Origin: a virus
Direction: 5' to 3' (one strand)
DNA: 35,670 bases
IMG/VR virus record: IMGVR_UViG_3300012005_000027
Coordinates: 1-35,670 of that record
The translations under genes and the position numbers were made by a program. Under the pieces are notes generated by a model, which saw nothing but the letters and a program-made list of their open reading frames with translations, did not search any database and was not told the origin of the DNA. Numbering within the stretch: the stretch's first letter is position 1; each line of letters starts with the position of its first letter. Positions 5,009 to 33,324 of the stretch are shown in pieces.

Positions 5009-6061
5009 ATGCAATTCAACCCGCTTACGACGATTCTTGATGAAGATTTATGGCGATATGGGATGTTCTTTGGGGTTCTTTTTTGTGTCGCCACAATCAT
5101 TTTCAGCAGATCGAAGCAAATCGGTTGGATTGCATGCACCACTTGGTTCTATGTTTTGTGCTCGGCAATTGCGACAATTGAATATCCTGTCATAAGGTTC
5201 GGAGTGTTCAATACTGGATTCATGGCGACCGCCGGACAAACCGCGCTTGAGGTGCTCGTGATCCCGCTCGCCGTTTTAAGTCTTCCGAGAATCTTGTTTA
5301 ATAAATCAATAGAATGGATGACGTGGCTGATCTTAACTGATCTTATTGCGGTGTGGATTTTCGGAACCGGAATCATGATTGCGCCGAGTTTCGATCTCGC
5401 GTTGATCGCAATGTTTTTACCTTTCGCTCCGATCTGGCTCGTTATCCTATCTGGGGTTACGATCCTGACTCATCATGCGTCGACTGCAGTCATGATCATG
5501 GTCGCGCAATGCATGGTGTTCGCGATGAGTTATAAGCGACTCAGGCCAATAGTTTTCGCGGTTATTCCGGTCGCAATTGCATCCGCATTTTACCATGCCC
5601 GCGGGCCGAACCTGGACGGGAACGAGCGGGTCACGGTGTGGAAAAGCATGATGTCTCATTGGTGGAGAGGAACTTCATTTGTGACGTCAGATAATTTAGT
5701 TTCGCTTCATTTTGGCGGCACGCTTTTAAGTAAGGTAACCGGAGCCGGTGCCGGATCATTCCTTTGGTTAAGCCTCATGTGCGAACCTGCTCACATGTTT
5801 ATGAGTGCCCACTCAGAGATCATTCAGATTACTTTCGAACTTGGTTTCGTGGGACTGTTCCTCGCCCTTGCGACGACGATGTCAGCAGTTAAAAGATGCT
5901 GGGATAGACCTGGCATAGTAGCGGCAGTGATGGGTGTAGTGGCGTGCTCTATGTTTTACCACCCACTTCGGTTCGCCCCGACTGCAATTTTGATCGCATT
6001 CATCTTTAGAGAAGCTTTAGAAAAACAAACGGCCAACGGAAAAACCGTCAGCCGGATGTAA
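5009..6061 (+). CDS. Polytopic membrane protein, O-antigen polymerase/ligase (Wzy_C)-like
   Basis: A 350-residue protein with about nine or ten hydrophobic segments. Three elements match the Wzy_C/WaaL pattern: LTHHAST (153-159), Arg207-x3-Trp211 before a large periplasmic-type loop, and GAGAGSF (245-251) followed by AHSEIIQITFELGFVGL (267-283), corresponding to the family's GxGxGxF...AHNxxLQxxxElGxxGL. Such proteins polymerise O-antigen units or ligate them to lipid A core in the inner membrane. In a phage the likely use is changing the host surface so that further phage cannot adsorb. The start ATG has only a weak upstream site, and it may depend on coupling to the 29-residue gene 12 bases before. 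Length is slightly below bacterial homologues. Confidence 0.75.
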   Translation: MQFNPLTTILDEDLWRYGMFFGVLFCVATIIFSRSKQIGWIACTTWFYVLCSAIATIEYPVIRFGVFNTGFMATAGQTALEVLVIPLAVLSLPRILFNKSIEWMTWLILTDLIAVWIFGTGIMIAPSFDLALIAMFLPFAPIWLVILSGVTILTHHASTAVMIMVAQCMVFAMSYKRLRPIVFAVIPVAIASAFYHARGPNLDGNERVTVWKSMMSHWWRGTSFVTSDNLVSLHFGGTLLSKVTGAGAGSFLWLSLMCEPAHMFMSAHSEIIQITFELGFVGLFLALATTMSAVKRCWDRPGIVAAVMGVVACSMFYHPLRFAPTAILIAFIFREALEKQTANGKTVSRM

Positions 6062-6080: not shown

Positions 6081-6503
6081 TTAGTAATAGAAAATGCTTG
6101 TGTCGTTCTCTCCGGTAATAGCGACCGAACCTTTACCGCGAATCGAGATGCGCATGCCTGCAGCAATCGCCATTGGGTAGAAGGTGTTTGCTGCACTCAA
6201 TGGAATTAAGAATTGACTCACTTCAGAATCCGCGGCGGCACCGTAAGTTGCTACGCCGATCTCCATCGTGTAGGTCGAGGTATCTTGGATCTGTAAGCCC
6301 TTAACGCCTTTTGCGGTGAGGTTAAGGAGAGGCACCCAATGGACTGTCCCTACGCTTCCGGCACCGCCTAAACCGACGCTCGGGCCACTGTTATTGTAAA
6401 CGGTACGGACTGGCACCGATACCGGCGGAGTTGTGTTCGCCATGGCACCAATAGAAATGAGTGAAGTTAAGATCAAAAATGCTGCAAAGATAAAATTTTT
6501 CAT
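6081..6503 (-). CDS. Secreted protein, paralogue of the protein at 31022
   Basis: A 140-residue protein with a clear Sec signal peptide (MKNFIFAAFLILTSLISIGAMA, cleavage near residue 22) and a Gly/Ala/Ser-rich beta mature part. The ATG is preceded by TAGGAGAAC. The region GLQIQDTS...LIP...ISI...TGE aligns with YVQIQNNS...LIP...VSI...TGE of the protein at 31022, and I take the two as paralogues. It is the last gene of the minus-strand virion/lysis block and converges on the Wzy_C-like gene with a 19-base gap. Function unknown: exported to the periplasm or surface, or a virion component that is first exported. Confidence 0.75.
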   Translation of the reverse strand: MKNFIFAAFLILTSLISIGAMANTTPPVSVPVRTVYNNSGPSVGLGGAGSVGTVHWVPLLNLTAKGVKGLQIQDTSTYTMEIGVATYGAAADSEVSQFLIPLSAANTFYPMAIAAGMRISIRGKGSVAITGENDTSIFYY

Positions 6504-8094: not shown

Positions 8095-8619
8095 TTAGTT
8101 AGGTTTAAATCTAATTGGTCCGCGCGTTCCCCTGGGCTTGTATACATAAGATTCATCGCGCCAGGTATCATTTAACAGGACTCTCCATATAACCGATTGA
8201 GTGACACCGTATATTGCAGCAAGCCTGGCCTGACTAATTGTGTGTGTTTTATATGCGTTTCTTATTTCTTTAACTTTTTGATAATCAAGCTTTGATACTG
8301 GAAGTCGATTCCCTTTTGCTTGCCTATTCTTTTTTACACTATCTTGTCTGTTTTCTAAATTTGTTCCCGCCCATAAATGATCTGGGTTAATACACGGCGG
8401 ATTGTCGCATTTGTGACAGATATATAATCCATCTGGGATTTTACCATTAAAAACTGAATATGAAACTCTATGGGCCGGGAGCGTTCTTCTTTTACCGAAT
8501 TTTTTACCCATCACTGTTCCATACCCAGCGCTATCTTTTGCGCCAATCCAATTCCAGCATCCATTAGCGTCTATTTTTATATGCCTCATTAATCGATCAC
8601 ACATTTTTTGCGTCTTCAT
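8095..8619 (-). CDS. HNH homing endonuclease
   Basis: A 174-residue protein with the HNH_3-type core: AHRVSY (near residue 49), then CHKCDNPPCINPDHLW (about 68-83) where the Cys pairs bind zinc and the His/Asn residues form the active site, followed by GTNLENRQDSV. The C-terminus (SQARLAAIYGVTQSVIWRVL) is a helix-turn-helix as in NUMOD-type DNA-recognition ends. I chose the ATG at 8619; a GTG at 8637 is in frame. Neither has a convincing ribosome site. It stands alone between two tail genes, typical of a free-standing homing endonuclease that spreads by cutting related phages lacking it. Confidence 0.92.
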   Translation of the reverse strand: MKTQKMCDRLMRHIKIDANGCWNWIGAKDSAGYGTVMGKKFGKRRTLPAHRVSYSVFNGKIPDGLYICHKCDNPPCINPDHLWAGTNLENRQDSVKKNRQAKGNRLPVSKLDYQKVKEIRNAYKTHTISQARLAAIYGVTQSVIWRVLLNDTWRDESYVYKPRGTRGPIRFKPN

Positions 8620-8643
8620 GAGAGTCACTTGTAGCACAATGTG

Positions 8644-11600
8644 TTAGATAAGCCTATACGCGGCGGACCTGTCAGAAAAACCAATGTAATCAATAACTTG
8701 TCCAAATGCTGGAGTAAATCCAAGCGGCGTATCGACTGTGACTTGATCGCCGACAATTGTCACCACCAAAACTTCCCCAGAATCAACCGAATAGTCCACC
8801 GAGTGAACCTGAACGATGGACCCGACAAAGAACTTCCCAACATCCCCGCCCGACACCGTGAAGTTCCTTTGATCGACTCCCGTCACAATTGCAACGGTAG
8901 GGCTTAGGAATACGTGCATGGTTTTATAAAATGCATTCACAGTTGGATTTGTGCTCGAAGGGTAATCGGCAATGTCAACGATGTAATCAGCCGCAGGGGT
9001 GAACGATAGGGCCGAGCAGGTCAGCAAGTAATTGTTTGTCGTGCTCACGCCTGTCAGTGTAACGACGTCTGATACGGAATAGTCCACCGAGTGAACGTGG
9101 ATCGTAAGGCCAATATAGTTTTGCCATTTCATTCCTTCGTCACCTGGGAAAATAGATCCGAAAGAATCTTTAAGGATGAGTGAAGTCGTTGTGCATCCTA
9201 CGTCGGTATTTGAGCTAGGAGAAATGGTCGCGTATCGATCACTGACTGAAGTTCCGGCGTTTCCTTGAAGCTGTAGCTGGACGTTCCCGGCCTTGAAATC
9301 AAAAGACCGATCAATCACTTGAAAAATCTGGATTCCCAAACCGCGCTTGCCTGTAGCGAAGTTTGAAATTTGAAGCACCCCATTTGAATCGTTTAAGATG
9401 CAAAGGTCACCGGCCTCAATCACTGAACCGGCCTGCCAGTTAACCTTTACAGTGATTAGTACAGCACCGAACGCGTATTTATTTAAAAGAAACGTCGCGT
9501 ATTTGTCGAGTAGATCCGTGTTGTAGGCCTTATACAGACCTCGCGACGTGATCGGTAAGGCGCTCACATATCCACCATACCTTTCAAGGCTTGACGAAGA
9601 AACCGAGTTTCTCAGTTTATCGAACGTGCTGCCGTCATCCTCTACTCCGTAAGAGAAATCTACCTCATTGAAAAAGTTCCGATTATTCACGGCACGGGTA
9701 GGCTGAATATTTTGAGGCTCCAAAATATTGGTTTCGTCGATTGTGACAATGTTCTGATTTGCTATTGGCGGGGAATTATATCCAGCGCTTAATTGTCCAT
9801 AGCGAGTTAATCCGTAAGCTCCAATGGGGTAGTAAACCTCGGTCTGGATAAAGTCTTTACCGCTAGTCTCCTGCGTGGTGATGAAAAAAATCAGATCGTT
9901 GAAGTCGTTACCTAAGAACGTGTCTTTGATGTAAATGTGACCTGCGATATCGATGTCGGTTGGCTTTAGCGCGAGACCCGCATTGACCGGGTAGCAATCG
10001 TACTGTGACCGAACTGAAATCGTAGCGGAAGTCGTAAGCTCTTTATTTATTATGGCGTCGATATAAATTAAATCATTTGTACCCGTTGAACTCGAATCGA
10101 TTCGAGTGACCTTAACGGTTGCTCCGTTTTGTGATGGATATGCTGTATTGTAAATCGTTGCAAAGTCACCGGGCTGAATATTATAATCACTAATCGCATT
10201 CACGCCTAGATCGAGTTGTAAAATGTTAGTCGTGGTTACACTGGGAGTTGGGTCCGGGTTTTCTCCAATAGATGAAAGCGCTATTTTCTTAATCCAATTA
10301 CCATTGGTTCCAGATAGATACAACTTCAGCGCCATGTCCATCGCATTTTCTGGGTAAGTGCCATCTCCGACTTGAATGCCTGCGGTTACGGTTGTTTGTG
10401 CTGCGTGAATTGCTGGAGTCGTTAATCGTGCGCCCCTATGCGATACTGCAAACTGAGTCCCCGGAGCACTAGAGGTAAAAGCAGTAGTTGTGAAAGAATT
10501 TTGAAGTACACTGCCAGCGTTTGGGAGCAGGAAGAATTCGACTAAGGCTCCGGCAGCAAGTAATGCCTTGTAAATTCCTGCCGCAGTGGAAACCCCGTTT
10601 TGCATGTGTACGGTGATCGCGCTTATAACGATGCTGACAGTTTCTGATCCAGCAGTTCCGTCGTTTGCGTAAGCAATCGTAACGCCCGAAACTCCGGCTT
10701 GCGCAAAGAACCAAATTCCTTGTGTAGAAAATGTTTCACTATTTTGAATTGATAAAAAAGTCTGTGCTAATACCGATTGTGGGAAAGATGAAAACGAAGG
10801 GCTGACAATGACGTTTACTAAATCACGCGCGTCTTCGATTTGATCGATTGCAATTGCGACATCTATAGCGGTCGAAACGCCGACTTGAATTTGAACAGTT
10901 ATGGTATTATTTGAAACCGTAACCACTTCACTGCCGGCAGTCCCGCCGCCGATATAAATAATCGAAACATCAGACCCATGACCAGGTTGCGCGAAATAGG
11001 TAAGGCCCTGAATGTTCGCTTTATACTTCCGGTTGTCTTGAAACAGCGGTTCGCATTCAATCCATTCGCTATCGATCTGAATGTAATTATGAATTCCGGT
11101 ACTATACGCCGTGCCGTCCGGCTGATCAACTTGCACGTTGAATCCAGAATTGTTCTCGACGTTGATCATCCAGTCGGTTGAGGTGATGTCTGAAAACAGA
11201 AGTCCTTGCGCGGTGTAAAAAAGCGTCGTTCTTGCTTTTAAATTCGCGTCTGAAATCTGAAGCGTGACAAGCCCTGGTCCGGCAGTCACTCCAGAAACGT
11301 ATCCCTTGAAAATTTTTATGTAGTCATTCGGAAAAGACCCTTGAGTGAATCCGATATAAAGCGTCATCTGCGCAAGTAGAATATCTGGAATCAGAATCCC
11401 AGGCGACACAAGCTGAGTCATGAACTGATCGATATCGACGAATGAAATACTCAGAGATGAAACCGACGCCTTGCCCTGCTCAGGCTCAAGCCGCTGCTGC
11501 AAAGTGATGCTCGACTTATCAAGCGAGATTAAATCCTTGAAACCAGCGTAAGGGATCACGCCTCCGTAAACCAGTCCAGCGCCGCCGTAAACTGCGCCCG

Positions 11601-11742
11601 GAGATCCGTATAGAAGCTCAGTCGACACTGTTCCGCTCGTTAGTAAATAATTAAGCCCTTCGATCTGTACGATGAGCACTGGACTCTTCGACGTGATCGC
11701 GTTTTGGGCTAAGTAATTACTCGGCAGGCCGTTGATCGCCAT
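8644..11742 (-). CDS. Large tail protein (tail hub/tip, 1032 residues)
   Basis: The start ATG at 11742 follows ATAGGAGACTT; the open frame extends further upstream but overlaps the next gene without a site. The N-terminal ~250 residues (AGFKDLISLDKSSITLQQRL and onward) look like a tail hub or baseplate domain. Two copies of a GTAGSExVxV...GVSTA unit (about residues 260-300 and 355-395) match a small beta domain that I recall in many phage tail proteins. Two more related copies containing VHSVDYS lie near residues 883 and 979. Its place after the tape measure and two tail-tip genes suggests the central tip/fibre assembly. No enzymatic motif is seen. Confidence 0.8.
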   Translation of the reverse strand: MAINGLPSNYLAQNAITSKSPVLIVQIEGLNYLLTSGTVSTELLYGSPGAVYGGAGLVYGGVIPYAGFKDLISLDKSSITLQQRLEPEQGKASVSSLSISFVDIDQFMTQLVSPGILIPDILLAQMTLYIGFTQGSFPNDYIKIFKGYVSGVTAGPGLVTLQISDANLKARTTLFYTAQGLLFSDITSTDWMINVENNSGFNVQVDQPDGTAYSTGIHNYIQIDSEWIECEPLFQDNRKYKANIQGLTYFAQPGHGSDVSIIYIGGGTAGSEVVTVSNNTITVQIQVGVSTAIDVAIAIDQIEDARDLVNVIVSPSFSSFPQSVLAQTFLSIQNSETFSTQGIWFFAQAGVSGVTIAYANDGTAGSETVSIVISAITVHMQNGVSTAAGIYKALLAAGALVEFFLLPNAGSVLQNSFTTTAFTSSAPGTQFAVSHRGARLTTPAIHAAQTTVTAGIQVGDGTYPENAMDMALKLYLSGTNGNWIKKIALSSIGENPDPTPSVTTTNILQLDLGVNAISDYNIQPGDFATIYNTAYPSQNGATVKVTRIDSSSTGTNDLIYIDAIINKELTTSATISVRSQYDCYPVNAGLALKPTDIDIAGHIYIKDTFLGNDFNDLIFFITTQETSGKDFIQTEVYYPIGAYGLTRYGQLSAGYNSPPIANQNIVTIDETNILEPQNIQPTRAVNNRNFFNEVDFSYGVEDDGSTFDKLRNSVSSSSLERYGGYVSALPITSRGLYKAYNTDLLDKYATFLLNKYAFGAVLITVKVNWQAGSVIEAGDLCILNDSNGVLQISNFATGKRGLGIQIFQVIDRSFDFKAGNVQLQLQGNAGTSVSDRYATISPSSNTDVGCTTTSLILKDSFGSIFPGDEGMKWQNYIGLTIHVHSVDYSVSDVVTLTGVSTTNNYLLTCSALSFTPAADYIVDIADYPSSTNPTVNAFYKTMHVFLSPTVAIVTGVDQRNFTVSGGDVGKFFVGSIVQVHSVDYSVDSGEVLVVTIVGDQVTVDTPLGFTPAFGQVIDYIGFSDRSAAYRLI
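8789..9096 (-). repeat. Pair of identical 20-base segments within the large tail gene
   Basis: The same 20 bases occur at 8789-8808 and 9077-9096, encoding the VHSVDYS motif in two C-terminal domains of the large tail protein. Exact identity over 20 bases in otherwise diverged copies suggests a recent domain duplication or local gene conversion. Confidence 0.8.
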
Positions 11743-11749
11743 AAGTCTC

Positions 11750-14440
11750 CTATCTATGCCCAATACATGATATAAAAAATCCACCGTCAGTTGAAGCGAA
11801 ACTAGAGTTAAGCGTGATAAAGTTGATTGACGTTGCAGAGGTAAATGTGAAATCCCCGCATACAGACCCAGTTGAGGAACACGTACACCCTGGGGTAGAG
11901 CTAAACACACCCGGTGTGATATTAAGCGTATAGTTGCCAACAGAGTTTCTGGTAACGCTATTTACCCCTGATTGAGTCGTGATCGTACACGGAGTCGACG
12001 TGCAAGCAGTAGGAGATAATGCGTAGGCTACCGCATCAGCCCCCGCCGAGTTCGAGGTCACGCTTCCTATGCCTACGACTGCCGGAATTCCCTGCCCAGT
12101 TCTGACGATGGAAAAACCAGTTAAATTTACAGTTCCAGTACCACCTGAAATCTGCTCCTGAAGTTTAAAAGTAGGAGTTGTAGACGTGGCAAGATAGTTA
12201 GAACATCCCCCAACCGAGCTGGTCGCGTTAGCATAAGCAATATCGGCTCTCTGCAATCCTACCGCTACAACCGCAGAACTATCAATTAACTTAACCTGTA
12301 CGTTTTGCGGAGTTGCGCTGTCTGCAATGTAACCCGTATAGCAAACTTGATAGTTGTCTAACGCTGGTAGAGTGCAAGAAATTCCAACTAAACTCGATGC
12401 AGCAGTGCAAGTGATACTTTTACTAGGTCCAGCCGTCACTGTACCCGTCACGGATGCAGGATCAACAAAAGATCCAGTCGTTGTCGTCGATCCTGAAAGC
12501 GTTGAGGTTCCAGCCCATGAAGCCGAAACAGTGGCAATGCTCTGCACTTGCTGGGATGAGGATGGTGTGCACCGAATAGACACCCAATACTCTGTATTAG
12601 AAGCATCCAATGTTACGGATACCGATTTTGTAACCGTAATTACATCATTAATCGCTGCCGTGAATGTGACGGGTGTGATGTGTAGTGATTGTGGCGCCGT
12701 AGCTGATTGAGTCCCATAACCCGACCCGATTGTTGTTCCATTTTTCTTTAAAAGAATACTATCTGCAGAAGATGTATTGCTATAAATAGAAGCCGATGCT
12801 GTGCATGTAGATGCTACTTTTACAGTATAAGCGCCAGCAGAGAATCCCCCAACAGTATCCACAATGACGTTAGTGAATGGGAATGTAGTTCCACTTGTGT
12901 ATGCTCCACCAGCGATGTTGTTCGCGTAAGCAAAAGTGTCAGGTGAGTTAGTGCTTCCAATATTCCTAGCCGGGCCAACGTAAGCCGCGCCTATGTTTAC
13001 GGTTCCAGTAGAACTGGAAGCGACCTTAACGTCAATCCCGTTTGCGATTGAAGACGCCGGGTAGTTGATCGGGTAAGAATGATAAGCGCCATCGCTTGAA
13101 ACGGAAACGCATGATGTTGTAATTTCGATTGCGTTTTGAACCGGGCAAACGCTGACTCCGGTAAGCGCGGTCTTTAGAGTGACGTTATATTCCCAATTCC
13201 CTGAGACCTCCATTCCAGTCGGAGGCGTAACCGACTGATTTAAAATAATCCCGCTCTGCGCAGAAAGAGTGAGTTTTAAGCTTTGCTTCGTTCCAGTCAC
13301 GAATGAAGTCGTGTCGGTCGAAGCGGTCGAGTTTGAAACGGTCCAGTTGTCCGATGCGTTTGTGCCTTGGAAATTTTGGTTCCTCAAAATATTTCCGTTT
13401 GCGGTTTCGATTAATCCAGTTCCGGTTCCTGCAGTGGTCAACTGATAGCTCGGAACCTGAACGTTTGAAATAGAGGAATATCCGACATCGCTAACGCCTT
13501 TTGCGTTTAACCCGCCAGACCCAGAACCGCCCACTACATGCCAGCGGGTATCTTGTGAATTGTAGTTTACGATAACGGACGCATCTGTGGTCAGGGTCAA
13601 GTCTGACCCGCTGCCGGTCAATATTCTATTTACGGCAGTCGCCGATGTGTATTCGTTGCGAATGGTGATAGACGCGCCTGTTTTATTGATCAGCGTAATC
13701 ACCTGACCCGTAACCGGGGACGCGATTGAACCAATCGAAGTTAAAGACGCGTTTGTTAAAGCAGTAGTCGGATTGCTCACGGAAAGCGCGACGCTTGCGC
13801 CCGTTGTCGTGCTGTCGGTAGTCTGAGCGAGAAGGAGTGATCCATTAAGTGTTAACGAAGTCCCAACGCTTTGCCCATTGGTGATGCTAAGGCTGTTTAA
13901 GGTGGACGCAGCGGACCCGGTAAACGTAGCCGCTGAAATGGTACCGGCACTAAAATTCCCGCTTGAATCCCTTTTAACGATTGTGCTCGCAGTGTTTAAA
14001 TTGGTCGCGGTATTCGCTAGAACCGTAGCTGTCGCAACGCTACCGGAAGATTGTCCTCCGACAAGCGCGACGGTCGCGACTTGAGATCCGAAACCGGGGC
14101 CAGCGAGAACGTCACCTGTGAGCTGATTTATTGCGGCGTTTGAAACTTTCGTTTCGTTACCGGAAGAGTCTTCTATGTAAAAATTATTATCGCTTTTGAA
14201 ATACGATTTATTGTACCCGGAAGCAGGATCGGAAGGCGTCGTGATCTGCTTGTTAATACTCTCCTTATTCCACGTGATCGTGAAAGGTTCGGTGTCGTTG
14301 GCATTTTTAAACAAGAATGCATTGTTTGTAATAGTTGAGTTAACTTGTTGTCCATTAACGACGCCGCCGGTCGCAAATGCATTTATTGGTAAAACAAAAA
14401 GAAGTAAGCTTGCAATTATTTGTCTCATAAAGTTTCTCAT
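11750..14440 (-). CDS. Tail-fibre-like protein with N-terminal signal peptide (896 residues)
   Basis: A long Ser/Thr/Gly/Ala-rich, beta-structured protein. The first residues, MRNFMRQIIASLLLFVLPINAFA, form a clear Sec signal peptide with cleavage after about residue 23, unusual for a virion protein. A segment near residues 250-300 (IRNEYTSATAVNRILTGSGS...DTRWHVVGG) is of a type common in phage fibres. The C-terminus is Cys-containing (STPGCTCSSTGSVCGDF), which could form disulphides if exported. The gene starts in an ATGA overlap with the upstream tail gene, which supports the ATG at 14440; ATG 14428 is also possible. It lies in the tail operon, so I call it a fibre or decoration protein, not a host protein. 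Confidence 0.75.
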   Translation of the reverse strand: MRNFMRQIIASLLLFVLPINAFATGGVVNGQQVNSTITNNAFLFKNANDTEPFTITWNKESINKQITTPSDPASGYNKSYFKSDNNFYIEDSSGNETKVSNAAINQLTGDVLAGPGFGSQVATVALVGGQSSGSVATATVLANTATNLNTASTIVKRDSSGNFSAGTISAATFTGSAASTLNSLSITNGQSVGTSLTLNGSLLLAQTTDSTTTGASVALSVSNPTTALTNASLTSIGSIASPVTGQVITLINKTGASITIRNEYTSATAVNRILTGSGSDLTLTTDASVIVNYNSQDTRWHVVGGSGSGGLNAKGVSDVGYSSISNVQVPSYQLTTAGTGTGLIETANGNILRNQNFQGTNASDNWTVSNSTASTDTTSFVTGTKQSLKLTLSAQSGIILNQSVTPPTGMEVSGNWEYNVTLKTALTGVSVCPVQNAIEITTSCVSVSSDGAYHSYPINYPASSIANGIDVKVASSSTGTVNIGAAYVGPARNIGSTNSPDTFAYANNIAGGAYTSGTTFPFTNVIVDTVGGFSAGAYTVKVASTCTASASIYSNTSSADSILLKKNGTTIGSGYGTQSATAPQSLHITPVTFTAAINDVITVTKSVSVTLDASNTEYWVSIRCTPSSSQQVQSIATVSASWAGTSTLSGSTTTTGSFVDPASVTGTVTAGPSKSITCTAASSLVGISCTLPALDNYQVCYTGYIADSATPQNVQVKLIDSSAVVAVGLQRADIAYANATSSVGGCSNYLATSTTPTFKLQEQISGGTGTVNLTGFSIVRTGQGIPAVVGIGSVTSNSAGADAVAYALSPTACTSTPCTITTQSGVNSVTRNSVGNYTLNITPGVFSSTPGCTCSSTGSVCGDFTFTSATSINFITLNSSFASTDGGFFISCIGHR

Positions 14441-15183
14441 GTGTTAGGAGTCTGCCTGAAATTCATTAACGGGGTAGAATATAAAAACGGGAAGTCTGGA
14501 AGCATTTCGGTAAGTGGAAGCTCAATCCCTGTGCCTGGGTTTTCTAAAGTGCTGACAAAAACGGTATTCGGATCAGTGATGTCCGGCGTGAACTCGAATT
14601 CTCGCTGCTGGATCAACCAAATCATGAGCGGGTACCAATCGCTATCGGCCAAAGCCTCCGGGATGTATTTGAACATGACCTGCCAAAAAGTTTGAACCGA
14701 GAATGTGATCGATTCCTTAAGCCCGGACGCGCTGACGTTTACCGCTCCGAAGCTTTTAGGCATCCGCTTAGGGCTAAGGTAGGTGTACCCCAATTGATTC
14801 GGAATTAAGGCCGTACCGCAAGTAGATGAACCCGTGTAAGTCGTCGCACCTGTAAAGTCAGCCGCGCCGAACCCGATCAGCGATGCGGGATTATTCGGAT
14901 TACCGGATGAAAATAAAAGGCTGAAAACAGTATCCGTAGACGTAAGCGTGAATCTGTTTTCCGTGCCGCCTAAGATTGCGCGATTAACCGAAAATGAATA
15001 CGTGCTCACAACGTCCTGTGCTTGGATCGCAGAAATAATTGCGAGACCTAGTCCATTCAAAGAATAATATCCGAGCGCTACCGTTGCCGTAAGTGTCCCA
15101 GATGAATTCACGAAAGTGATGAACTGGTTTGCGATGGTTATTTCGAAATCGTAAAGGAAGAGAGAGGGGTTTCTGAGTGCCAT
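14437..15183 (-). CDS. Tail-tip structural protein
   Basis: A 248-residue, beta-rich protein encoded immediately after the tape measure gene (TAAATG junction with GGAGGAGG upstream), the position of distal tail or tail-tip proteins. The segment NPNNPASLIGFGAADFTGATTYTG resembles N-terminal parts of tail-tip attachment proteins. The C-terminal half (WQVMFKYIPEALADSDWYPLMIW) is more globular. I cannot assign a named family. It is coupled to the fibre-like gene that follows. Confidence 0.75.
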   Translation of the reverse strand: MALRNPSLFLYDFEITIANQFITFVNSSGTLTATVALGYYSLNGLGLAIISAIQAQDVVSTYSFSVNRAILGGTENRFTLTSTDTVFSLLFSSGNPNNPASLIGFGAADFTGATTYTGSSTCGTALIPNQLGYTYLSPKRMPKSFGAVNVSASGLKESITFSVQTFWQVMFKYIPEALADSDWYPLMIWLIQQREFEFTPDITDPNTVFVSTLENPGTGIELPLTEMLPDFPFLYSTPLMNFRQTPNT

Positions 15184-17199
15184 TTAAAAGCCTCCTCCGA
15201 CTGATTGAACCGTAAAGTTTTGGGCATCTGCTGCGCCACGCACGGCATCTGTGATCCATCTTTGAGTTGTCGCATCTGAAAGTATCGGCCCGTTGAAAAC
15301 AAGGTTCGTGCTTTGATGGCTCACGGTCTGAGAGGCAGCGCTGGTCAATGGCGATGACGCCGCAGATGGAGCTGCTGAACTCGCTGATCCTCCACCGGCA
15401 GAAACGCCGGACGATACTGAGCTAGAGGATGAGCTCCCCATGCTAGACAGTTTCGAACCCAAAGCGACGAGCGCTCCACCGGCTGCAAGGCCGAGTGGGT
15501 TAGGAGGCCAAATAGAGGATGCGAGTAAGAATTCACCGCGTGAAGTTGCTTCCTGGCCGATCTCGCCCAAGAATGCTTGACCCATTGCGGTTGCGGCATC
15601 CTGAGACCCGTCGCCAATAGCTTTGAAGCCAGCCGTCATGCTATTGGTCAACCCGGAGTTAGCCTTCTCTCCGAGCGTCGCCATGTTCTGAAAATTCTTA
15701 GCGCCCGTAGCGGTTGCGACCTGCCAACCTCCAGTAAAGCCTTTCATGGTTTTTTCTTCCGCCAGCTCCAATTCTTTTGCGGCTTTGATCGCGTCGTCTT
15801 TGGCTTTAATTTTGGATGCTGTGATGTCCTGATCGGCTTTTTTTGAGATGCTAACGATTTGAGCTTTGGCTAATTTCTTATCTGAAATCTCACCGCTTGA
15901 AAGCTTCCGATTGATTTCATCGATCTCGTTCGCGGCCTTCTTTTCAATGTTTAAATACTCTTGCTCTCTTAGTTTTGCAAGGTTAGCGGCATTCGTTTCT
16001 AGGTCTTCCTCTGACTTAATTCTTTTTTCATCTAGTGCAATAAGCTCTTTGTTTAGAGCATTTTTGTCTTTTAAAATAATATTTTTATCTACAAGCGAAG
16101 GAGTCCCTTTAACGGCTGATGTTTTCTCTTTTGAGACATCCTTTTGTTTTTTGATTTCTGCCGTAATCGCAGAGTTTTGCTTTAATAAATCTTGGTAAAC
16201 AACCTTAGCCCTTGAAAGTTCAGCTATATAATTATTCGCCATCCCGCTTGGGTCACCCCATTTTGTGGCTTTATGTTGCAGTTCCATCATGTTTTTACGA
16301 GCTTCAGTTAGCTTTAAAGAAAGATAGGCGCTTTTATTACCTAGTAGTTCCATCCCATCACCGGCATCGCGCCTAAGACTAATACTTAATGCATGCACTG
16401 AGTCGCTAAGATATTTAATTGCCGATTTTGTCGCTTGACCAGCAATGCTTTCGCTAATCATCGTGGCGAATGTCTCTTTAATTTCAGTTATAGAAACCTT
16501 GAATTGTTGCCAAGAATTGGTAGCTATTTTAATATCGCCGTCAATTCCTTTTAGCTGCTTACTTCCGGCTTCGAGAGTTGCGTTCAAAACGGCTTGCTGT
16601 TTACCTGCTAGAGATAGAGCGCTTACCCCGACGCCAATGGATGCAGCGAAATCCTGCCATGCCTTCTTTTGATCGATAACGATATTAAGTTGCCTAAGCA
16701 TTCTAGTGTTGCCGGTAGCAATAGCTCTTGTAATAGATTCAAAATTTTGAATCATTGTCTGACCATTAATTTGAGACGCCTGTCTGGCGAGATTCATAAT
16801 TTGAGGCAACTTTTCCGCCCCAACCTGTAATTCAATAAGTGCCTTATTGGTTGCCTCAAGTAATTCTGTTTCAGTAACGAGTCCGTGAGCCGATTTCTCA
16901 AGACCTTCTTTTAAGGTGTTTGAAAAGATGCCAGCACGATCGGTAAGTATTTCAAATTCTTGATTTACTGCTGCTATTTTTTCAGCGTCGAAAACAGATT
17001 CGAATATTGTCTTAACTTCAATAAAAGCTACAGCAATGACTCCAAGCAAAGGCCCAGCAGCCTCTAGGCCTTTAAGAAGTCCCTTTAGGTTGTCTGCCTC
17101 GCCAATTTTCATTATTGACTCATAAGCTTCGTTTGCGCTATTAACGAACCCTTCCGAGTCTAGGTCGATCTTAAAGCTTGTTTCCTCATTGTCTGCCAT
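15184..17199 (-). CDS. Tail tape measure protein
   Basis: A 671-residue protein, long, helical, Lys/Glu/Ala-rich. Residues about 44-65 and 560-575 are hydrophobic, and a Ser/Gly-rich stretch (about 580-620) precedes the C-terminal beta end. The motif run QASQINGQTMIQNFESITRAI and a central coiled coil fit phage tape measure proteins, which fix tail length and enter the host membrane at DNA injection. It follows the G/GT frameshift pair, exactly as in lambda-like gene order. By the usual rule of about 0.15 nm per residue, a tail near 100 nm is expected. Start ATG follows TCGGAGGAAGC. Confidence 0.92.
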   Translation of the reverse strand: MADNEETSFKIDLDSEGFVNSANEAYESIMKIGEADNLKGLLKGLEAAGPLLGVIAVAFIEVKTIFESVFDAEKIAAVNQEFEILTDRAGIFSNTLKEGLEKSAHGLVTETELLEATNKALIELQVGAEKLPQIMNLARQASQINGQTMIQNFESITRAIATGNTRMLRQLNIVIDQKKAWQDFAASIGVGVSALSLAGKQQAVLNATLEAGSKQLKGIDGDIKIATNSWQQFKVSITEIKETFATMISESIAGQATKSAIKYLSDSVHALSISLRRDAGDGMELLGNKSAYLSLKLTEARKNMMELQHKATKWGDPSGMANNYIAELSRAKVVYQDLLKQNSAITAEIKKQKDVSKEKTSAVKGTPSLVDKNIILKDKNALNKELIALDEKRIKSEEDLETNAANLAKLREQEYLNIEKKAANEIDEINRKLSSGEISDKKLAKAQIVSISKKADQDITASKIKAKDDAIKAAKELELAEEKTMKGFTGGWQVATATGAKNFQNMATLGEKANSGLTNSMTAGFKAIGDGSQDAATAMGQAFLGEIGQEATSRGEFLLASSIWPPNPLGLAAGGALVALGSKLSSMGSSSSSSVSSGVSAGGGSASSAAPSAASSPLTSAASQTVSHQSTNLVFNGPILSDATTQRWITDAVRGAADAQNFTVQSVGGGF

Positions 17200-31021: not shown

Positions 31022-31417
31022 ATGAAATCATTTTTTCTATGCATCGCCATGTTCATCGGAGGCGCGGCACACGCCGAGATTCTTTTGGGCAAAACTCCGA
31101 TTTACGCGGTGAACTATAATTTTTCGACTGGTAACGTATCGAGCGCGGCTTTCACTCAAATCGTGAGTAGCTTGCCGTCATCGATCTCTTATGTGCAGAT
31201 CCAGAATAACTCGGGTCAGATTTTAAAGATTGCTACTGGCGCGGCTGGAAGTGAGTCGGTAATCCCGTATCTCATTCCTAGAGGCGGCACCGCTTACGGC
31301 GGCGCTACCAGTGAGCTGTATTTTACAATGCGCGCGTTTCAACGTGTAAGCATTCAAGCTGCGCTCTCGACCGGAACGGCGACGACAGGCGAGCTTATCT
31401 TAAACTTTTTCCAATAA
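31022..31417 (+). CDS. Secreted protein, paralogue of the protein at 6081
   Basis: A 131-residue protein with signal peptide MKSFFLCIAMFIGGAAHA (cleavage after about residue 18) and a beta-rich mature part (PIYAVNYNFSTGNVSS, YVQIQNNSGQILKIATGA). Start ATG follows GATGAGGGTAAATCT. Its mature part resembles that of the protein at 6081 in order and spacing of motifs (QIQ, LIP, SI, TGE). It opens a plus-strand cassette of envelope-directed genes. Function unknown; exported, and possibly virion- or surface-associated. Confidence 0.75.
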   Translation: MKSFFLCIAMFIGGAAHAEILLGKTPIYAVNYNFSTGNVSSAAFTQIVSSLPSSISYVQIQNNSGQILKIATGAAGSESVIPYLIPRGGTAYGGATSELYFTMRAFQRVSIQAALSTGTATTGELILNFFQ

Positions 31418-31770: not shown

Positions 31771-32159
31771 TGGGCATACTGCCTCCTGCTGCTGAGAAAT
31801 ATGACTTTACTGGAATAGGAAATGCAAGTGCTGCCGTCATTATGGCGCTCCTTCTTGCTAATCCATACACATCTTTTCTGACGGTAGGTCTTCTCGGTAA
31901 AATCAATTTCAAAATTATATCTTGGCTTTGCTCTTCCGCTGCATCAGTCGGGCTGGTTTTCCTAAACGTCGGTGCAGAGCAAATTGTAACCGCAGTAGAT
32001 AAAGTTGGGTTCGATGGATCGTTTGACAATGCGTTCAAGCTGATCGATCAAATTAATTCTACCGGCCACAGTCTTACTCCTGCGCAAGTTGCCGCAATCG
32101 ACGCGCCAGTGATTGCTCAATTCGAAAAGTTCGCGAAACTTACGAGGACAAAATCATGA
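31770..32159 (+). CDS. Two-segment membrane protein, holin-like candidate
   Basis: A 129-residue protein with two hydrophobic stretches (about residues 19-43 and 50-72) and a soluble helical C-terminus (DKVGFDGSFDNAFKLID and onward). Start chosen at ATG 31770, overlapping the upstream stop, over a longer frame to 31677. No holin family is recognised with certainty. With the 42-residue gene before it and the lipoprotein gene after it, it could be the membrane part of a lysis or exclusion module. Confidence 0.65.
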   Translation: MGILPPAAEKYDFTGIGNASAAVIMALLLANPYTSFLTVGLLGKINFKIISWLCSSAASVGLVFLNVGAEQIVTAVDKVGFDGSFDNAFKLIDQINSTGHSLTPAQVAAIDAPVIAQFEKFAKLTRTKS

Positions 32160-32494
32160 ATAAGAAAACTCTTATCATTTTCCTAAGTATTTTCTTATTT
32201 ACTGGATGTGCGAGCGTTCATATTCCTGACTTCAAGGCCTACGTCACTCTTCCGGCCTCCGGTGATGGGTATTGGGTGCAAACCGTTTCGACAGGCGAGG
32301 GCCGTATTCCTAAAGCAACTTGGGACGTTCAAAAGAAACGAGGTATTGTCCTTTTTTCTGAGGATTGGTCGATTCTTCGAAACACAGTCCTAAAAAACTG
32401 CCTCATGAATTCCTGCAAAGATACGGTTGGGATGTTTGATTCTCTTTTCTCTACCCTTGATTCTGCACTTAAAGAAGCGACCCCAACTCCCTAA
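32156..32494 (+). CDS. Predicted outer-membrane lipoprotein
   Basis: A 112-residue protein with lipobox LFTGC (Cys17) after MNKKTLIIFLSIFLF; residue +2 is Ala, not Asp, so outer-membrane sorting is expected in a Gram-negative host. The mature part has two further Cys (CLMNSC). Start overlaps the preceding stop (ATGA). It may be an o-spanin-like or a surface-exclusion lipoprotein; it is longer than Rz1 and not Pro-rich until its TPTP end. Its stop overlaps that of the convergent gene by 3 bases. Confidence 0.75.
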   Translation: MNKKTLIIFLSIFLFTGCASVHIPDFKAYVTLPASGDGYWVQTVSTGEGRIPKATWDVQKKRGIVLFSEDWSILRNTVLKNCLMNSCKDTVGMFDSLFSTLDSALKEATPTP

Positions 32495-32761: not shown

Positions 32762-33277
32762 TCAATTGCTGATTTTTACATAGGTATTGCTGTATCCAAG
32801 AGGAGCGCTTCTGTATCCAATTTGAGCCGTGTTCTGTCCTGCTTGTTTAATAAAGTAAAACGTCCTCACGTTAGTCTGGTATGGCTGTGCGAATGCGTGA
32901 CACTCGGTTGTGTCGATTCCGTAATCAAACACCCATGATGGGATGGAGCTATTATTTTGCTCCCATGAATCCCCGGCGTAGCTGATCACGGTTTTACATT
33001 TCGTAGAGGTCATTTTACATCCGCTGAAGGTGAGCTGATCGGTCGGGTCCGTTGTGTTTGCCCAGGTTCCGGTAGCCGGGTTCGGAGCGCAATTTCCACC
33101 GTAGGACGCTCCTGATGCTGGATAGAATGCGGTTGGGTTTAACGTGCTGGTTTGTGCGAGCACCGGAGCTGCCATTGGATCGACATAAGCCGAACTTTCG
33201 GCCAAGCCCGGTATGGATGGGGTTTGAGCGCCGCAAGCGGTGAGGAGTAAGGTTAAAACTAAGATTGCCTTGTTCAT
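32762..33277 (-). CDS. Predicted outer-membrane lipoprotein (171 residues)
   Basis: MNKAILVLTLLLTAC is a lipoprotein signal with lipobox LTAC (Cys15) and Gly at +2. I chose ATG 33277 over an upstream start because this begins the signal peptide. The mature part is Pro/Ala/Thr-rich and then has several Cys (CKMTSTKCKTV and DTTECHAF), suggesting disulphides in the periplasm or at the surface. A 14-base perfect palindrome sits immediately before the start. Phage lipoproteins of this kind (for example T5 Llp) can block receptors, but I see no homology to them. Confidence 0.75.
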   Translation of the reverse strand: MNKAILVLTLLLTACGAQTPSIPGLAESSAYVDPMAAPVLAQTSTLNPTAFYPASGASYGGNCAPNPATGTWANTTDPTDQLTFSGCKMTSTKCKTVISYAGDSWEQNNSSIPSWVFDYGIDTTECHAFAQPYQTNVRTFYFIKQAGQNTAQIGYRSAPLGYSNTYVKISN

Positions 33278-33291
33278 ATTACTATAGTAAT
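33278..33291. promoter_or_regulatory. Perfect 14-base palindrome, candidate operator
   Basis: ATTACTATAGTAAT is its own reverse complement and lies directly before the lipoprotein start on the minus strand, in the 82-base divergent gap before the ERF gene. Such a site could bind a dimeric repressor controlling one or both genes. Only one copy was noticed. Confidence 0.5.
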
Positions 33292-33324
33292 ACAATCAAG
33301 TTAATAACGCAATAGATTATTTGC

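Follow-up and report, generated by a model that had tools for sequence, protein, structure and literature searches.

A soil bacteriophage tail fibre that appears to pass through the bacterial export machinery

A tail fibre of a soil bacteriophage appears to be sent through the bacterial export machinery before it is fitted to the particle. This is not normally expected of tailed phages: their assembly takes place in the cytoplasm, and stable disulfides are rare there. The phage is represented by an IMG/VR virus record of 35,670 bases, analysed at its full length and called the window below. The protein in question, the window fibre, is the 896-aa product of the minus-strand open reading frame (ORF) 14440-11750 and begins with a predicted signal peptide (SP). 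Judged from its sequence, its gene neighborhood and its homologues, it is on balance probably a receptor-binding tail fibre that is exported by Sec, forms its disulfides in the periplasm and is attached to the tail when the cell lyses or later. The features of the tail region are as follows.

15184..17199, minus strand: 671-aa protein, putative tape measure (by size and position; same order in relatives)
14437..15183, minus strand: 248-aa tail-tube/Dit-type protein with an inserted domain at residues of about 12-123 (model pLDDT 83.8 and structure comparison)
14437..14440, minus strand: ATGA overlap of the upstream stop and the fibre start (sequence)
11750..14440, minus strand: SP-bearing tail-fibre gene, 896 aa (ORF call and orthologues; start 14440, stop 11750-11752)
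14372..14440, minus strand: predicted Sec signal peptide, residues 1-23, cut between AFA and TGG (home-made filter; the cut coincides with the start of SP-less orthologues)
14180..14371, minus strand: conserved segment at the N-terminus of the mature fibre, residues 24-87, with the highest conservation at 24-55 (putative tail docking)
11753..12085, minus strand: C-terminal Cys-containing tip domain (similar in relatives G013 and G023 at the end of the second, SP-type fibre)
8644..11739, minus strand: large protein downstream of the fibre, putative tail hub (by position; similar-looking protein in relatives)

The fibre gene and its signal peptide

An earlier note on this DNA had described a signal peptide on an 896-residue protein of the tail operon, a Cys-rich C-terminus and coupling to the preceding tail gene, and these observations hold. 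The ORF is present and its N-terminus passes a home-made SP filter; the mature part contains 14 Cys, all beyond residue 430 (the first at 432), with six in the last 84 residues; and the stop of the 248-aa gene and the start of the fibre gene overlap by 4 nt (ATGA), as they do in four SP-bearing relatives, which fits the coupling. The N-terminus reads MRNFMRQIIASLLLFVLPINAFA followed by TGGVV, with a charged n-region, a hydrophobic core and an A-x-A motif, the cut being predicted between A23 and T24. By the filter, the n-, h- and c-regions and the A-x-A site of a Sec signal peptidase I substrate are all present.

The filter, used in place of SignalP, asks for a charged n-region, a 7-residue hydrophobic core and small residues at -3 and -1, and was relaxed once, after its first version had missed the orthologue in G012. 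The window fibre scored 4.76. The relaxed filter was passed by 19 of 2800 shuffled ORF N-termini from 16 phage records and by 103 of 2000 shuffles of the window fibre’s own first 40 residues. The chance of a spurious match is about 5% for the window SP taken as a single gene, and is a poor explanation because four orthologues pass the filter too. The nearest in-frame alternative starts are an ATG at residue 5 and a TTG at 43. A start-site error was ruled out by the ATGA overlap in all five SP-bearing phages and by the lack of an in-frame start at the mature N-terminus in the window; in G010 and G011, a GTG and a TTG, respectively, are in-frame start codons at residue 23. A sequence scan of the window fibre found no lipobox, no LPXTG and no second clear hydrophobic segment, and searches of Pfam, PHROGs, PDB sequences and named phages gave no match.

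Two other genes of the window pass the same filter.

6081..6503, minus strand: 140-aa SP protein near the end of the tail operon (filter)
31022..31417, plus strand: 131-aa SP protein from an internal ATG (filter)

The mature parts of both are free of Cys and by eye have the look of small beta-sandwich virion or fibre-tip proteins, with no Pfam or PHROG match. Lipoproteins are predicted at 32156-32494 (plus strand, lipobox FTGC) and at 32762-33295 (minus strand, lipobox LTAC), the latter with 5 Cys from the cut site by the filter’s count. The gene at 5009-6061 (plus strand) encodes a 350-aa polytopic membrane protein, O-antigen polymerase/ligase-like by eye and without a Pfam match at E 0.01, which could change the host surface.

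The tail slot in 17 uncultured phages

The window fibre is encoded directly after the tail-tube/Dit-type protein, and no other gene separates the tail-tip gene from the next large tail gene. In the VIA structure comparison of the modelled 248-aa protein, its core aligned with tail-tube and baseplate chains: the phiCD508 needle (Z 9.3, 3.6 Å over 122 residues), the phi812 baseplate (Z 8.7) and the lactococcal p2 baseplate chain 2wzp_P (Z 7.3). Several of these Z values are of a size that a common arrangement could also give, but many of the rows were tail or baseplate parts. With Foldseek alone, all tail matches had E > 0.001, and the single match with E < 0.001 fell in the inserted domain. The 671-aa putative tape measure had no PHROG match, and the putative hub, for which the start at 11739 was preferred over a TTG at 11940, had none in Pfam or PHROGs. 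Just downstream of the hub gene lies an HNH endonuclease gene (8095-8637, minus strand), and G010 has a similar-looking 152-aa ORF in the same place.

The inserted domain of the Dit-type protein resembled the capsid protein of Emiliania huxleyi virus 201 (8rbs_K; Z 14.6, 2.0 Å over 109 residues, 21% identity) and a PBCV-1 capsid chain (Z 11.3), and its BFVD matches included giant-virus minor capsid proteins. A weak match was obtained with an adenovirus-penton-derived chain (6hcr, residues 133-417; Z 7.8, 2.9 Å over 99). Because this region holds the fibre in adenovirus, the inserted domain may be a fibre-docking platform.

Relatives, all uncultured phages, were gathered by searches with the portal, the 248-aa protein and the fibre N-terminus. 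The slot was found in 19 records, and removal of the near-copies G016 and G024 left 17 distinct phages, the window included. The order of putative tape measure, 248-aa-type protein and fibre was the same in all 17. A large protein resembling the putative hub followed in 13; it stood at the other contig end in G008 and was not seen in G011, in G019 (both at contig ends) or in the viewed stretch of G020. The earlier note had proposed a search for homologues with the same signal peptide, and the search yielded four. An SP is present on the first fibre in 5 of the 17 phages (the window, G006, G010, G011 and G012; the cut site in G010 is ambiguous), whereas in the other 12 the first fibre starts at, or a few residues from, the predicted mature N-terminus, that of G013, for example, with MGGVINGEPVN. 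The mean identity among the five SP-bearing fibres is 35% in the SP and 66% in the first 32 mature residues; the five SPs drift in sequence, yet all pass the filter. The mature N-terminal segment is common to the window fibre and the fibres of related phages and is conserved with and without an SP, with 15-23 identities of 30-32 to the SP-less fibres of G013, G018 and G019. Beyond residue 55, the window’s N-terminal part diverges more than that of any other member of the SP group (branch 2.34).

Homologues that start after the hydrophobic segment would, according to the earlier note, refute its reading, and 12 of the 17 orthologues do start there. Since five orthologues keep the SP, these short starts are read as gain or loss of the signal and not as a wrong start in the window. 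As the SP-less orthologues begin at the mature boundary, the SP would have been added in a particular lineage to an otherwise ordinary fibre gene; by this sequence comparison, it is a module gained by, or lost from, such a gene.

Elsewhere among the 17 phages, G008 has an SP-bearing fibre-like gene upstream of its terminase genes, and no SP was seen in the viewed slot stretch of G014, G015, G017, G018, G020, G021 and G022. G008 also encodes a 275-aa protein (L009:6896-7723) that consists in its second half of a Ser/Ala repeat; other frames of that stretch contain long Arg-rich ORFs. Two scans of genome contigs gave no prophage or host relatives. Named-phage relatives were not found via the window fibre, the portal, the G011 fibre N-terminus, the tip or the G022 248-aa-type protein; the G022 fibre N-terminus had one weak Mycobacterium phage match (E 0.02). 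The terminase matched 1825 records, all below 60% identity.

In the tree of the 248-aa protein, the five phages with an SP on the first fibre form a seven-phage clade with G013 and G019 (support 100/100; the G013 and G019 pair, 99/97). The same seven group together in the tape-measure tree (82/98), while the supported set in the tree of the short fibre N-terminus also includes the SP-less G018. Each of the three trees requires two changes of the SP label, a number that 5, 3 and 2 of 500 label shuffles equalled. In G013 and G019, the first fibre lacks an SP and the next gene has an SP-type N-terminus, so all seven clade members have one in the slot. The second fibre of G013 has a long hydrophobic core and a weak cut site, and its N-terminus could be a signal anchor; the SP-type gene of G019 is cut by the contig end. 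Beyond it (L056:17104-18499), two more SP-type proteins are encoded, one of 322 codons in its frame and one of 149 aa, the former sharing a module with the SP-less fibres of G018, G014 and G017. Outside the clade, G007 and G023 carry an SP on the second gene.

Cysteines, modules and deposited relatives

The complete SP-bearing first fibres contain 14, 2, 10 and 6 Cys after the cut (the first fibre of G011, cut by the contig, was left out of the counts). In comparison, the 12 SP-less first fibres contain 1, 1, 0, 1, 1, 0, 0, 1, 4, 4, 0 and 0, a difference with p = 0.0036 in a one-sided rank test that ignores relatedness. The Cys count is even in all eight complete SP-type fibres, as opposed to 7 even and 6 odd among the SP-less fibres with Cys (p = 0.046) and 116 even and 69 odd among other ORFs of at least 150 aa with at least two Cys. 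Seven SP-less fibres likewise have 4 or 6 Cys, and parity taken alone is weak evidence. The Cys pattern as a whole fits disulfide pairing after export, with which it is consistent and which it does not prove.

Modules of the SP-type proteins recur in the relatives’ SP-less fibres (blastp). Residues 189-304 of the window fibre match in G014 and residues 219-302 in G020; modules of the G023 SP-type protein match G014, G015 and G021, and those of G013 match G017 and G018. Module sharing of this kind indicates that the SP-type proteins are fibres and that the fibre genes are mosaics. The SP-type protein of G007 ends in K1-lyase_C (PF24146; E 2.9e-23, 82.5 bits, cut-off 27). The Cys-containing end of the window fibre matches the ends of the second, SP-type fibres in G013 (blastp E 1.9e-6) and G023 (2.5e-4); the likeness was first spotted by eye when SP-type and SP-less fibres were listed together. 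A tip profile run on 25 records gave four matches, i.e. its three members and G024, a near-copy of G023; since only members and a near-copy were recovered, the likeness is a pointer and not a test. The window tip alone had no further match in viral contigs and none in plasmids. Its structure model (pLDDT 50.5) was too poor for reading Cys pairs or for a fold search.

A module of the SP-type fibre of G023 also matches gp68 of the cultured Bdellovibrio phage phi1422. This protein of 614 aa is encoded directly after gp67, annotated as ‘tail fiber protein’, and by the filter carries an SP and 8 Cys; gp75 of the same phage has an SP and 2 Cys, an even number as well. There was no blastp match at E 1e-3 between gp68 and the window fibre or its N-terminal segment. 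The gp68 protein resembles the window fibre in its SP, its even Cys count and its position directly after a tail-fibre gene, and it shares a module with both SP-type and SP-less fibres of the window’s relatives; it differs in lacking that blastp match and in belonging to a contractile-tailed phage.

The structural module of the phi1422 group is said to be related in an excerpt of PMC3391216, and four of the seven other phages tabulated there were examined, namely CP-T1 (Vibrio), 56 (Aeromonas), ZF40 (Pectobacterium) and PLPE (Iodobacter). None of the 13 tail, tail-fibre or virion proteins chosen from these four has an SP. A weak SP-like match fell on a 143-aa gene after the major capsid gene of CP-T1, and the remaining filter matches in the four on genes annotated as lysis, lipoprotein or hypothetical. 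In the Bdellovibrio phage phi1402, gp32 and gp33, the last large tail-end proteins (identified by position and by the ‘tail collar’ label of gp33), have no SP, and two other genes at its right end pass the filter. As phi1402 lacks an SP on these proteins, the link of the trait with a Bdellovibrio host is a lead and not a result, and such a host for the window phage is likewise a lead only. The modules of the G010 and G023 SP-type fibres were traced to five deposited sources (duplicates JQ177062 and LR756503 removed). An SP is present in three (phi1422, MW202444 and MW202898, the last from an internal ATG and not the annotated start) and absent in two (Leptolyngbya phage Lbo-JY46 and LR756501), where the match covers 12-18% of the query.

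A candidate export route and its alternatives

In the favoured course of events, the fibre would be made as a Sec preprotein, its translation starting in the ATGA overlap with the Dit-type gene, then pass through Sec into the periplasm and be cut after Ala23. Its Cys-rich tip would form disulfides in the periplasm; lysis would bring the periplasm and the finished tails together, the fibre joining the tail at or after that point, and the conserved N-terminal segment would dock the mature fibre to the Dit-type tail tip. What the sequences show is the gene, the SP, its coming and going among orthologues at the mature boundary, the conserved slot and the Cys pattern; the steps of export, cleavage, disulfide formation and docking, and a place in the virion, are inferred. 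Like other tail fibres that adjoin a Dit gene, the window fibre sits beside the tail-tube/Dit-type gene, has a modular shaft and a tip and shares modules with SP-less fibres; it is unlike them in its Sec SP and in the 14 Cys of its mature part. The earlier note had left two options, a virion part that is exported first or a surface protein serving another purpose such as blocking superinfection. The former is favoured because the mature N-terminus shares both homology and starting point with the SP-less fibres of the same slot, and because the window fibre is alone in its slot; the latter is less supported. A point against the favoured reading is that relatives manage with an SP-less first fibre.

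Some tail proteins contain hydrophobic segments. The N-terminus of the window fibre might accordingly be an uncleaved one, acting as an anchor or, within the virion, as a segment for membrane insertion during infection; this and two further alternatives were weighed. The best surviving of these, although rather unlikely, is an exported protein that is no part of the virion. It would be an adhesin or decoy, soluble in the periplasm or released, and would block superinfection or mask receptors on the infected cell or its debris. SP-bearing phage proteins that act in the envelope provide precedents, as far as the excerpts of the two sources go: T4 Spackle (gp61.3), whose SP is cleaved and which is periplasmic (PMC7650644), and the outer membrane protein Lom of lambda, encoded between tail genes (PMC12309495). 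Neither is a fibre, Spackle being an inhibitor of a tail lysozyme and Lom a beta-barrel. The SP-type protein is moreover separate from the first fibre in G013, G019, G007, G023 and phi1422; in those of G013, G007 and G023 and in the visible part of that of G019, no match to the N-terminal segment was found, so the SP-type protein there may be non-virion. Against this stand the position of the window fibre alone in its slot, its retained N-terminal segment and the lack of an evident surface-holding feature among those looked for (lipobox, LPXTG and second hydrophobic segment).

The uncleaved N-terminus is improbable. Hydrophobic segments of other tail proteins and the long core and weak cut site of the G013 second fibre speak for it, but the core in the window is short, the A-x-A site is present, SP-less orthologues start at the cut site, and the SP sequence drifts while SP features are maintained. 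Least probable of all is a passive relic without function of its own, picked up from a host adhesin, of the Bdellovibrio MAT (mosaic adhesive trimer) kind, through recombination: the fibre genes are mosaic and MAT proteins are, in an excerpt of PMC10769870, SP-bearing and phage-fibre-like, but the SP persists in five orthologues at 35% identity with all passing the filter, the sister pair G013 and G019 has an SP-type N-terminus on the next gene, and the Cys enrichment fits real export.

The favoured reading, a fibre exported before it joins the tail, invites comparison with these adhesins. In the excerpt of PMC10769870, MAT proteins are fibre-like adhesins with diverse tips, in which an SP is followed by a beta-rich domain of about 130 aa that is conserved. 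The window protein shares with that definition the order of SP and then fibre; it differs in being phage-encoded in a tail operon, whereas the MAT proteins are bacterial and used on prey. A phmmer comparison with PDB sequences, made for a relation to solved MAT tips, gave 0 matches for the three proteins tried. Among the open-licence full-text articles listed, judged on titles and abstract openings, no Sec-exported tail fibre of a tailed phage was found.

If true, a Sec-routed fibre would amount to a second assembly compartment for tailed phages, would explain Cys-rich receptor-binding tips, and would open a path from phage fibres to adhesins that bacteria secrete, the Bdellovibrio MAT proteins among them. 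A bolder and doubtful, though conceivable, extension is that phages of Bdellovibrio-like predators build fibres outside the cytoplasm, with Sec export, periplasmic disulfides and docking at lysis, and trade modules with MAT adhesins. Were such a trade real, phage genes would be a source or a recipient of the fibres with which these predators recognize their prey.
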